Assembly (NCBI RefSeq): GCF_017352095.1
Contig: NZ_CP071463.1
Coordinates: 1 to 64,000, forward strand
Source of the DNA: Natrinema longum
GTDB taxonomy: Archaea; Halobacteriota; Halobacteria; Halobacteriales; Natrialbaceae
DNA length: 64,000 bases
Direction of reading: 5' to 3'
Part shown: positions 2,807-7,025 of the stretch, in pieces
Position numbering within the stretch: the first letter of the stretch is position 1
Layout: each line of letters starts with the position of its first letter
The notes under the pieces: model-generated
Seen by the model: only the letters and a program-made list of their open reading frames with translations
Database searches by the model: none
What the model was told of the DNA's origin: nothing
Translations under genes and position numbers: made by a program

Positions 2807-3646
2807 CTACGCGTTCTCTTCGTCCTGTAGCTCCGCGAGTTCGGCCTCGACGTCCTCCTGGTCCTCGTTTTCGAGCTCCGTGAGGTCCTCGTCGTCGACC
2901 TCGGCCGCGGCGTCGGCCTCGGTCTCGGAGTCCGCCGTCGATGTCTCCTCCCCACCGACATCGGATTTGAGCGTCTCGAGTTCGGCTTCGACGCCGCTGT
3001 CGGTCGAGAGCTGCTCGAGTTCGCGGTCGATGTTGTCCTTGTCGGACATGACGTCCTCGAACGCGCCCGATTCGTGGAGTTCGTCCATTGCGGCGGCGCG
3101 GGCCTCCATATCTTCGGTCTGTTCTTCGGCGCGCTCGATGGCCCGGCCCACGTCCTCGAACTCCTCGCCGGTAGCCGTCATGGCCTCCGAAACCGTGGAG
3201 CTGGCTTTTGCGGCCTCGTGGCGTGCTTTCATCGTCTCCTTTTTCGTCCGGAACTCCTCGATGCGGCTCTGGAGTTCGTTCTTCTGTTCGATCAGCCGGT
3301 CCTGTTGGCCCTGCAGGTCCGAAATCTGGCGTTCCAGATCCTCGATCTGGTTCATTTTCGTCTTCTTCTTCTCCAAGGCGCGTCGCGCCAGATCTTCTCG
3401 GTCCTGCTCGACCGCGGTGCGGGCTTGCTCGTTGTGTTTCTCGACGTTCTCCTCGAGGCGGCGTTTCTGCATCTCGAGGCGCTTTTTCTGCGTCGTGAGA
3501 TCGGCGATGCCGCGTTTGACCTGCTGGAGCTGGTCGCGCATCTGTTCGTAGGAGTAGTCCAGCGTTTCGGTCGGATCTTCCGCCCGGTTGAGCACCGAGT
3601 TGAGCTTCGATCGAATGACGTAGGAGGCCCGAGAGAGGATGCCCAT
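2807..3646 (-). CDS. pspA: PspA/IM30 family membrane-associated coiled-coil protein
   Basis: The protein is 279 aa, starting at the ATG at 3644-3646 (MGILSRASYV). It has the family signature of an N-terminal amphipathic segment followed by about 170 residues of Lys/Glu/Gln-rich coiled coil (residues 40-200), then an acidic haloarchaeal tail rich in Glu and Asp. PspA/Vipp1 proteins are ESCRT-III relatives that bind and remodel stressed membranes. It is the last gene of a minus-strand trio with a membrane-anchored winged-helix protein and a secreted protein, although palindromic elements and gaps of over 100 bp separate them, so separate promoters are likely. Confidence 0.85.
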   Translation of the reverse strand: MGILSRASYVIRSKLNSVLNRAEDPTETLDYSYEQMRDQLQQVKRGIADLTTQKKRLEMQKRRLEENVEKHNEQARTAVEQDREDLARRALEKKKTKMNQIEDLERQISDLQGQQDRLIEQKNELQSRIEEFRTKKETMKARHEAAKASSTVSEAMTATGEEFEDVGRAIERAEEQTEDMEARAAAMDELHESGAFEDVMSDKDNIDRELEQLSTDSGVEAELETLKSDVGGEETSTADSETEADAAAEVDDEDLTELENEDQEDVEAELAELQDEENA

Positions 3647-3752
3647 ACTCGCTACGTATCGCTCCCCGGCCTTAAAAACATCACTTCGGCAACAGTCGAT
3701 TCCGATGCCCCGTCCGTAGGGCACGGGAGCCGAGACGACTCGTCTCCCCCGC

Positions 3753-3830
3753 TCATACGGTTTGTTGTGCCGGTGGGACCGGGACCCGCCCTGCGGTCCC
3801 ACCGGCACTGACGGACAGGAGACCGTCTCA
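3753..3830 (-). repeat. Palindromic element, copy A, at the stop codon of the membrane wHTH gene
   Basis: A 78-bp imperfect palindrome. Read on the minus strand it begins TGAGACGGTCTCCTGTCCG, whose TGA is the stop codon of the gene at 3828-4373, and it ends CCGTATGA. An inner hairpin has a perfect 15-bp stem (3767-3781 with 3794-3808, GTGCCGGTGGGACCG and its complement) and a 12-nt loop. The first 23 nt are identical to copy C at 44351. Two further intact copies lie at 4519 and 54675. Confidence 0.9.
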
Positions 3831-4373
3831 GAGGAGCATGACGACGTTGCCGGTTCCCCGTCGTTTCCGTTCGACGAGTCCTTTGCTCTCGAGCGTATCG
3901 AGCGTTCTGCTCACGGTCGCTTTCGAGAGGTCGGTCTCCTCGACGATTTCGCGCTGGGCCCGGACGCCGTCGGCGTCGAGAACGGTTTCGTAGATGACGC
4001 GTTCGGTGTCCGCCAGCTCGTCGGTCGTCTCCTCCCACTCCCGTCGCCGCGCCTCGAGCAGATCGTCGCTCCGCTGGAGCGTCGAACGACCGTCGGTCAG
4101 GGCGCGTGACTGCCCCGGATCGGGGGCCGAACTCGATCGGTGCTGGAGCAACAGGACCGCCGCGCTCGCGCCGCAGAGACACGCGGCGACGGCGACGACG
4201 CCGATCTCCCGATAGGTGAAGTAGCTGCCGACCGCGGTCACGTCGGCACCGGCACCGCTGGCCGCGACCACGATTCGGGGCGGGTTCAGTATCTGTCCGG
4301 CGAGGACGACCGTCGACGCGACGAGGACGGTCGCCGTGACGAGCCGAGTATTCTGGAGGACTCGGAGGACCAT
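3828..4373 (-). CDS. Membrane-anchored winged-helix transcriptional regulator
   Basis: The 181-aa protein has two hydrophobic segments (about residues 10-28 and 52-75) flanking a short loop, then a linker and a C-terminal winged helix. The segment QREIVEETDLSKATVSRTLDTLESKG is a MarR-like recognition helix region, followed by a basic wing (RKRRGTG). This suggests a regulator tethered to the membrane that binds DNA on the cytoplasmic side. Similar proteins are common in haloarchaea but their signals are mostly unknown. The stop codon TGA is the end of palindromic element A. The gene upstream on the same strand encodes a secreted protein and the one downstream encodes PspA, so an envelope-sensing role is plausible but inferred. 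Confidence 0.8.
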   Translation of the reverse strand: MVLRVLQNTRLVTATVLVASTVVLAGQILNPPRIVVAASGAGADVTAVGSYFTYREIGVVAVAACLCGASAAVLLLQHRSSSAPDPGQSRALTDGRSTLQRSDDLLEARRREWEETTDELADTERVIYETVLDADGVRAQREIVEETDLSKATVSRTLDTLESKGLVERKRRGTGNVVMLL

Positions 4374-4518
4374 GGCTCAACCACGTTCGTTCCACCCCTA
4401 AGTATCATCGATTTGTCGTCGTGGGTGCCGTTGAGCCGTTCTGTGTCCGGATACGGGCAGTACTCGAGACGGCCGAGTCTGACGGACCGGTACGGGCGGG
4501 CACATCGCAGCCCCCGAT

Positions 4519-4603
4519 TCATACGGTCTCCTGGACCGATCTACTGGTGTCACCGCAAGGCAGTTCGGAGTACACCGTCACTGACGGACAGCAGCGCGTC
4601 TCA
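4519..4603 (-). repeat. Palindromic element, copy B (degenerate), at the stop codon of a secreted protein gene
   Basis: An 85-bp copy of the same family. On the minus strand it begins TGAGACGCGCTGCTGTCCG and ends CCGTATGA; the first TGA (4601-4603) is the stop codon of the gene at 4601-5263. The outer arms are well kept. The inner stem is eroded, leaving a GGTGT/ACACC core, so it is an older or less constrained copy. Confidence 0.8.
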
Positions 4604-5263
4604 TCCCGCGACGAACTCCAGACGGAGCAGTCGTTCGACGGTTTCGGACTCGAGATCGATCACGGTCCGGTATTCCACGGGTTCGCCCACGGGTTCGACG
4701 ATCACGAGTGCGCGATCCTCACGGATCGCCGACGTGTTCTGCGAGCGCACGATCACTCGGTTGGGGCCCGCCGAGCGCGTCTCGAAGGTCGGTTCGTCGA
4801 CGGCCCCGTTCCGTACTCGGCCCCCGTCACGATCGATTTCGGCTAGTTCGGCCCGTTCTCGAGGGAGCGTTCCCGCACTGATCGGGATCACAGTGACCGT
4901 CGCACCGCCGGTCGTCTCGAGTCGATCTGCGATCGTCGCGTTGGTCAGCGCGGTTCGTTTCGCGAGTTCTCGGCGGTCCTCGCTCAACCGCGGCGGGTCG
5001 CGGGGCTCCGTCGTAACGGCGAATCCGCCGGTCTCGTGGGAGATCTCGATCCGCTCGAGGTCGCTCACGTCGTCGACGATCGTCGTTTCCGTCCCGTCCC
5101 CCGCCGCGAACGTCAGCGAACCGTCGTCGATCGCGAACGTACCGGCGGGTTCGCTCGTCAGCACCGACGTGGCTCCGGCGACGCTGGCGAACGCGGCGAC
5201 GCTGATCCCGAGGACGACGAGTGACAGGACGAACGCGACTCGAGGTGGATCGACGGCGGTCAT
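4601..5263 (-). CDS. Secreted or membrane-anchored protein of unknown function
   Basis: The 220-aa product starts at the ATG at 5261-5263 (MTAVDPPRVAF) and has one N-terminal hydrophobic segment (residues 8-32) followed by an acidic, beta-rich exported part. No catalytic motif is evident and I do not recognise the family. The stop codon coincides with palindromic element B. It is divergently transcribed from another exported protein at 5502, and the shared intergenic region carries an array of GAAACG half-sites, suggesting co-regulation of the two. Confidence 0.65.
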   Translation of the reverse strand: MTAVDPPRVAFVLSLVVLGISVAAFASVAGATSVLTSEPAGTFAIDDGSLTFAAGDGTETTIVDDVSDLERIEISHETGGFAVTTEPRDPPRLSEDRRELAKRTALTNATIADRLETTGGATVTVIPISAGTLPRERAELAEIDRDGGRVRNGAVDEPTFETRSAGPNRVIVRSQNTSAIREDRALVIVEPVGEPVEYRTVIDLESETVERLLRLEFVAG

Positions 5264-5316
5264 CGTTCCGTTGCCCTCGCAGCCCACCGTATGAATACTG
5301 CGATTCGTCGCCGTTC

Positions 5317-5381
5317 GAAACGGATGAAACGCGTCTGAAACGGCTCCGAAACGCGTTTCGAACGCGTTTCACGCCCGTTTC
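5317..5381. promoter_or_regulatory. Array of seven GAAACG/CGTTTC half-sites between divergent genes
   Basis: GAAACG occurs at 5317, 5326, 5337 and 5348, and its complement CGTTTC at 5354, 5365 and 5376. Spacing is 9, 11, 11, then 11 and 11 bp, so most sites fall on one face of the helix. The centre GAAACGCGTTTC (5348-5359) is a perfect 12-bp palindrome. It lies between the secreted protein genes starting at 5263 (minus) and 5502 (plus). A cooperative operator is the simplest reading. Confidence 0.6.
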
Positions 5382-5501
5382 CAACGGGGTTTGAAAGGGG
5401 CTTTCTGCTAACGGTCGAGTGGAGCGATCGGGGCGACCGGTACCGAGATCCTCTCGGTGACGATGGCGTCGTCCGGATCGCCGTCCACGAACGTGGTCCC
5501 C

Positions 5502-7025
5502 ATGAAACAAGACTACAAGTACGCGATCTACGTGCTCGCACTCGCGACGACCGTGACCCTCGCGACGGGTCTGCTCGTCGTTGCGGGCGACACGGGCACG
5601 AACGGTTCAGGAGACGAACAGCTCGACGATACCACCGTCGAACTAGTCGGCGACCTCGACGCGCTGACAGACGACGAGGCGGACCGACTCCCACACCTCG
5701 TCTGGGAGGACGAGGCCGTGCGCAGCTACTTCGACGACCCCGACGGCTTAGAGTTCGAGGTCACCGAACCGACGACGTACGACGAGGACGACGACGAGTT
5801 CGTTCCCGCCGACGACACGGTTCGGGTTCAGGTTTCGCCCGTCGACGAACGCCTTCCCTACGCGTTCGTGACGGTCGATCTGGACGAAGACACGGCCAGC
5901 CTCGAGCAAGGCTTGCACTCGGTCGACGACGTCGACGTCGAATTCGGCGAGGGCAAGCACCGATTGACCGACGACGAGCGCGATCGGGTCGCGCAGATCC
6001 TGCTGGACGATCCCGACGTCGAGTGGGAGATCAAGACGCTGCTCGAGGAGCCCGCAACGGTCGACGCTGCCGTCGTCGACCGCGAGGGCGACCGGGTGAG
6101 CGTCGCGCTCACTGCGTCCGACGGACAGTCGTCGACGGTCCACGCCGACGTCGATCTCGCGTCCGGATCCGTCGAGAACCGGTCCGTTTCCGGCGCACTG
6201 ACGGTAAACGAGAGCGACAGCGGGTCCGTTGCCGTCGACGTCGAAGCCGACGGGAACGGAACCTACGTGCTCTCCGGGAACGCGAGCGAAACGATTTCGG
6301 CCGACGCCACGATCGACGAGTCGGTGGCCGGAACCGCGGTCGAAGTCACCACTTCGAACGAGACGAAAACGAGCGTCGAACTCGACGACGTCACCGTTTC
6401 CCTGGTCGAGCACCGCGAGTCGCTTTCGGAACACGACCCCGAGGAGTTCGCGGCGCTCGTCTGGGCGAGCGAGGACGTTCGGCGGTACTTCGACGACCCC
6501 GAACGGATCGAGATGGACGTGAAACAGGATCGAGAACTCGACGCGGAAACCGGCGAGTTTACCCCCACCGACACGATGACCGTCCGCGTCACGCCGACGG
6601 ACGACCGACTTCCCAACGCGGTCGCGGTGGTCGATCCAGCGGCGGAGACGGTGACGGTGAAACGAGGGCTCCCGGCGCTCGAGCCCGTCGACCTCGAGTT
6701 CACCGACGAAACGGGTCTCGTGACCGATGCCGACCGCGACCTGATCGAGGACGTCGTCCGTGCCGACGACGCCGCGAGCTACACCATCCAGAGTCAGTTC
6801 GACGATCCCGACGACCTGGACGCGACCGTCACGGCCGCGACCGGCGACGGGCCGGAGACGGTGACCATGGAACTGGCACCCCCAGGAGTCGAGACGGCGT
6901 CGGTCTCGGTGACCGTCGACCTCGAGAACCGGACGGTTACGCGATCGTTCGTCGTGATCGAGGCGCTCGATAGCGAGGTGATCGATATCGAGGACAGCGA
7001 CTACGAGATCGAGACCGCCGAGTAA
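5502..7025 (+). CDS. Exported acidic protein with two homologous ~180-aa domains
   Basis: The 507-aa protein starts at the ATG at 5502 (MKQDYKYAIY). One N-terminal hydrophobic segment (residues 7-28) acts as a signal or anchor. Residues 45-225 and 297-482 are an internal duplication: LVWEDEAVRSYFDDP (66-80) matches LVWASEDVRRYFDDP (319-333), and the later LTDDERDRVAQ segment (155-165) matches VTDADRDLIED (407-417). A beta-rich spacer separates the two. No enzyme motif is seen. The YFDDP repeat units may be binding modules on the cell surface. The function is unknown. Confidence 0.7.
   Translation: MKQDYKYAIYVLALATTVTLATGLLVVAGDTGTNGSGDEQLDDTTVELVGDLDALTDDEADRLPHLVWEDEAVRSYFDDPDGLEFEVTEPTTYDEDDDEFVPADDTVRVQVSPVDERLPYAFVTVDLDEDTASLEQGLHSVDDVDVEFGEGKHRLTDDERDRVAQILLDDPDVEWEIKTLLEEPATVDAAVVDREGDRVSVALTASDGQSSTVHADVDLASGSVENRSVSGALTVNESDSGSVAVDVEADGNGTYVLSGNASETISADATIDESVAGTAVEVTTSNETKTSVELDDVTVSLVEHRESLSEHDPEEFAALVWASEDVRRYFDDPERIEMDVKQDRELDAETGEFTPTDTMTVRVTPTDDRLPNAVAVVDPAAETVTVKRGLPALEPVDLEFTDETGLVTDADRDLIEDVVRADDAASYTIQSQFDDPDDLDATVTAATGDGPETVTMELAPPGVETASVSVTVDLENRTVTRSFVVIEALDSEVIDIEDSDYEIETAE

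Follow-up and report, generated by a model that had tools for sequence, protein, structure and literature searches.

A phased array of half-sites as probable operator of a membrane-anchored winged-helix regulator in haloarchaeal genomes

The intergenic region between two divergent genes for exported proteins in Natrinema longum carries an array of half-sites on an 11-bp lattice. Judged from sequence, it very probably serves as operator for the membrane-anchored winged-helix protein encoded next to it, here called A2. A2 would bind it cooperatively and control the promoters from which the exported proteins A1 and A3 are expressed. A2, A1 and A3 together form a conserved module. Coordinates refer to the window, the whole stretch of 64,000 nucleotides that was analysed, and are listed in Table 1.

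Table 1. Features of the module locus in the window
Feature	Position	Strand	Basis and remarks
Operator array (candidate)	5317..5381	.	4 direct and 3 inverted half-sites, 11-bp lattice; kept at module loci of many genera
A3 promoter element	5377..5405	+	GTTTC 5377, TATA-like TTTGAAA 5390-5396, CTTTC 5401-5405; geometry shared by A3-type promoters across the class
Probable A1 TATA-like box, GTATTCATAC (A1 strand)	5289..5298	-	Position conserved in arrangement I relatives; function inferred
A2, putative membrane-anchored winged-helix regulator, 181 aa	3828..4373	-	Pfam DUF7343, hydropathy, conservation
A1, exported/anchored protein, 220 aa	4601..5263	-	N-terminal TM 10-28, beta-rich extracytoplasmic part
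A3, exported protein, 507 aa	5502..7025	+	N-terminal TM 9-27; start set by homologue alignment

Exact GAAACG half-sites start at 5317, 5326, 5337 and 5348 on the forward strand and exact CGTTTC half-sites at 5354, 5365 and 5376. The steps from start to start are 9, 11, 11, 6 (across the palindrome), 11 and 11 bp, and the array is centred on the dyad GAAACGCGTTTC at 5348-5359. The sequence-only reading from which we started had described seven half-sites with mostly 11-bp steps, and all seven are exact and in place. GAAACG as such is mildly enriched in the 64-kb window, with 82 occurrences vs 57 expected. The phased-lattice score reaches 6.3 at 5348 and elsewhere in the 64 kb is at most 2.15. 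The same reading had proposed a genome-wide count of such arrays; in the whole Natrinema genome, a single contig of 3.59 Mb whose closest named relative in the searches is N. ejinorense, the exact core occurs at this one place. With two mismatches allowed, the genome gives six other core sites vs one for the reversed control.

Among 391 genomes of the haloarchaeal class, the core pattern GAAACGCGTTTC-N6-GTTTC finds 36 arrays in 35 genomes, and the reversed pattern finds none. We inspected all 36 places, and homologues of A1 and A2 are present at each of them (36/36). Arrays in unrelated DNA and a lack of conservation in relatives had both been named beforehand as observations that would speak against an operator. 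Neither occurred, and array and spacing are kept across genera. The A1 gene itself is present in 70 of the 391 genomes and in 27 of 86 genera. For a broader locus set, composed of the array loci, the other A1 loci and 58 named loci of GTDB genomes, a lattice was called present at a score of at least 2.5. It is found in 81 of 87 distinct loci with A1 and A2, at neither of two A1 loci without A2 and in none of 300 random stretches of the window. In five or six module loci the lattice is weak or escapes detection; of these, at least L151 is a contig end. A distant blastn search with the intergenic region alone matches plasmids of Haloarcula and Halomicrobium; the five plasmid matches that we opened all have the three module genes around them. 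In Haloarcula hispanica, the module is on pHH400. Modules are found on chromosomes and on plasmids in many genera. Among the wider neighbours, the A3-like gene is the only conserved one. The PspA/IM30 membrane-stress gene (2807-3643), which adjoins A2, was considered as a functional partner and rejected, as it is not a conserved neighbour.

The module occurs in two gene arrangements. In arrangement I, seen in the window, Haloarcula and Halomicrobium, A2 and A1 are read away from one side of the array (A1 proximal) and A3 from the other. In arrangement II, seen in Halorubrum, Halorientalis, other Natrinema and many more, the array separates divergent A1 and A2 genes, which are mostly about 135-150 bp apart. 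An A3-like exported gene lies downstream of A2 in most of these loci, and many of these A3-like genes are preceded by a second set of half-sites. That the array is kept while the surrounding genes rearrange argues strongly for its being part of the module.

The 11-bp lattice is kept in both arrangements, and the sequence between half-sites is free. Over 87 distinct intergenic regions, exact GAAAC/GTTTC sites number 4.37 per region vs 0.77 expected. Sites in the same orientation are most often 11 bp (133 pairs) or 22 bp (51 pairs) apart, and the spacings of inward-facing pairs peak at 7, 18, 29 and 40, all equal to 7 modulo 11. In arrangement II, most dyads lie close to 57 or 68 bp from the A1 start. 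The switch of orientation moves by whole 11-bp steps, with the lattice about fixed relative to the gene. This register extends into the core promoter. A (C/T)TTTC element follows a TATA-like box, mostly at a distance of 24, 35 or 46 bp (24+11n) from a GTTTC half-site, and this holds in three promoter classes: A1 in arrangement II, A3 in arrangement I and A3-like genes in arrangement II. A strict pattern finds (C/T)TTTC in 32 of 55 A1 promoters (II) and 15 of 30 A3 promoters (I). At the A3 promoter of the window, GTTTC and CTTTC are 24 bp apart, and the A1 TATA-like box lies about 30 nt upstream of the A1 start codon. The A3 promoter pattern has 29 matches in the 391 genomes, 28 of them at the module: 27 at known modules and one beside an incomplete A2 where a contig ends (G363). 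The remaining match lies in unrelated coding DNA (G319); as the reversed control matched four times, one stray match is to be expected.

This geometry also bears on whether the repeats are an operator at all. Direct and inverted repeats can mark mobile or replication elements, and several modules do sit on plasmids. But a genome has just one or two arrays, which always sit at the same promoters, and it is the phase relative to the TATA-like box that is conserved, not the sequence between the sites. The window contains no comparable cluster by chance. Both a repeat or recombination element and a chance cluster are rejected on the genome and class-wide searches, and we regard them as extremely improbable.

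A2 has two TM segments near its N-terminus, at about residues 11-29 and 57-75 by hydropathy, and a C-terminal DUF7343/MarR-type winged helix-turn-helix (wHTH) domain at 120-180. It matches PF24034 (DUF7343) with 49 bits (curated cut-off 27.6, E 5.5e-13) and PF12802 with 36.7 bits (cut-off 27). A wHTH domain and TM segments in one polypeptide are the layout of membrane-bound one-component regulators. The recognition helix SKATVSR is nearly invariant among homologues. We found no A2 relatives in phages, and a sequence search found none among solved structures. A2-like proteins in loci of Altiarchaeota, Diapherotrites and Methanomassiliicoccus (L176, L178, L180, L182) come without a detected A1. 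The Natrialba lineage (L118, L122; L157 and L158 are the same loci) has the helix SEATVSR, with Glu in place of Lys151 of A2, and its half-sites are GAAAT/ATTTC or degenerate. The joint change of helix and half-site in this one lineage is suggestive of a change in recognition.

The two flanking genes had been called divergent envelope genes. They are divergent, and export is a fair description given one N-terminal hydrophobic segment in each product; for "envelope" there is no support beyond that segment. A1 residues 84-219 give a weak cystatin/PepSY-like match. The A1 structure model (pLDDT 78.7) has a best Foldseek E of 0.07 and VIA Z scores of at most 8.8, with the YpeB C-terminal domain at Z 6.6 and a designed cystatin fold at Z 8.3. 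The A3 model (pLDDT 63.9) shows a weak cystatin/PepSY-like resemblance, and a profile comparison of A1 with A3 gives a weak match over 36 columns. Searches of Pfam, NCBIfam, PHROGs and PDB returned nothing convincing on the function of either protein. The A3 reading frame has a further opening at GTG 5457. The Natrinema A3 of about 507 aa contains an internally repeated domain; most homologues, at about 320 aa, contain it once.

The linkage ties the array to the module and not specifically to binding by A2 itself. We infer A2 as the binder because it is the only recognised DNA-binding protein that is always present, because its recognition helix is nearly invariant and because the half-sites change along with the helix in Natrialba. 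The sequence-only reading had already named the nearby membrane winged-helix protein as a natural candidate. A2 proves to be the constant partner of the array, the two A1 genes that lack A2 also lack the lattice, and in arrangement II the A2 gene is itself read directly away from the array. A soluble regulator encoded elsewhere could instead bind the array, with A2 and A1 merely as its targets; A2 does have wHTH relatives elsewhere in the genome. A search of the genome and the class for the array or the A3 promoter pattern outside the module found no wider regulon, G319 in coding DNA being the exception. The array travels with A2 over genera, between chromosomes and plasmids and through both gene orders, is missing where A1 stands without A2, and has no wider conserved neighbours except the A3-like gene. 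We therefore consider a regulator from elsewhere quite unlikely.

With A2 as the binder, several A2 molecules, held at the membrane by their two TM segments, would bind half-sites on one face of the DNA, and the 11-bp phasing would let them cooperate. Half-sites that all lie on one face suit a protein approaching the DNA from the membrane. The half-sites of the central palindrome are centred 7 bp from each other, a tight fit for both recognition helices if a classical wHTH dimer were to bind there. In the window, A2 on the array would control two divergent promoters, that of a probable A1-A2 operon and that of A3. As A2 lies within this probable operon, it would also regulate itself. A1, and perhaps A3, would probably feed an extracytoplasmic signal to A2; a role of these proteins in relaying an external signal is a guess from gene order.

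The position of the array alone is compatible with activation or repression. The sites lie upstream of the TATA-like box in a fixed register, and the core promoters of A1 and A3 look weak. On these grounds we find it somewhat more likely that A2 activates, by a route in which it would aid recruitment of TFB/TBP. A2 might also act as a repressor, its occupancy beside BRE/TATA blocking TFB/TBP until a membrane signal releases it. A fixed-register position abutting the core promoter fits this too. Many MarR-type proteins are autorepressors, and the co-directional A2 and A1 genes of the window make negative autoregulation plausible. A repressor would be expected less readily at sites upstream of, and not over, the TATA-like box and start, nor is it favoured by A1 and A3 core promoters that look weak like activated ones; A2's own promoter in arrangement II, with a TATA-like TTAAA consensus, lies further from the array. 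Repression is possible in our estimate, and somewhat less probable than activation.

The mRNA leader of A3-type genes appears to be a conserved hairpin as judged by folding. In arrangement II, the leader from the promoter to the A3-like start codon folds into a long hairpin, with a mean z of -2.9 vs dinucleotide shuffles and 72% of 43 leaders below -2. In the control, A2 coding sequence of equal length, the mean z is -0.2 with 5% below -2. Examples downstream of A2 are L074, L095, L103 and L121, and the hairpin is weaker at 5406-5501 of the window. Leader sequences differ between clades, and the clades do not align with each other. An Rfam search of 4300-5600 gave no match at gathering score. 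Elsewhere in the locus, the intergenic stretches 3746-3835 and 4515-4600 both contain TCATACGGT...CACTGACGGACAG, which resembles a dispersed intergenic repeat of the Natrinema genome. A more speculative and rather unlikely picture would combine leader and lattice. The lattice would serve as a docking strip: A2 molecules lined up in the cytoplasmic membrane would fasten the promoter DNA to it along one face, and A1 and A3 would begin to be transcribed at the membrane, where their products are exported, with the structured A3 leader as a second control step.

In the open-access literature, we found no paper under the name DUF7343, a family without described function, and no description of the array or the module; GAAACGCGTTTC appears there only in an unrelated paper. 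By its sequence, the module is very probably a new and previously undescribed case of membrane-bound one-component regulation. Known membrane-bound transcription factors of archaea are few, and so regular an array is a good substrate for studying how a tethered regulator reaches the DNA and acts on TFB/TBP. The module is testable in haloarchaea, as it offers a single candidate regulator with very few targets and an exact operator and promoter geometry over many genera. It is also a first clue to the function of the DUF7343 family and of two uncharacterised families of exported proteins.

The closest known systems are ArnR and ArnR1 of Sulfolobus acidocaldarius, membrane-bound one-component regulators that oligomerise and bind two inverted-repeat boxes (PMC6396743). 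The HTH of ArnR is N-terminal and its TM segments are C-terminal, and the protein also has HAMP-like and sensor domains (PMC6396743). Like A2, it is an archaeal HTH protein with two TM segments, and its repeated boxes upstream of surface-structure genes recall the repeated half-sites here, for which use by A2 and oligomerisation are proposed. This likeness is one of layout and site arrangement, compared by description. In contrast to ArnR, A2 has its TM segments first and the wHTH last, without a recognised cytoplasmic sensor domain, and this reverse domain order places it outside the ArnR family proper. ArnR has two boxes, whereas the A2 module usually has 3-7 sites on an 11-bp lattice. Two further systems compare at the level of the sites. 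EarA is described in PMC6396743 as having four TACATA sites at the Methanococcus fla promoter, and CsmR of Haloferax has the motif TATCA-N4-TGATA upstream of BRE/TATA, read as positive control (PMC13286277). As in the array here, the sites of both lie just upstream of the core promoter, theirs at surface-structure genes, and EarA shares the feature of several site copies at one promoter. The reading of the CsmR motif as positive control counts in favour of the proposed role of A2. The array differs from both in its motif, in its restriction to one module per genome and in a proposed regulator that is anchored in the membrane.
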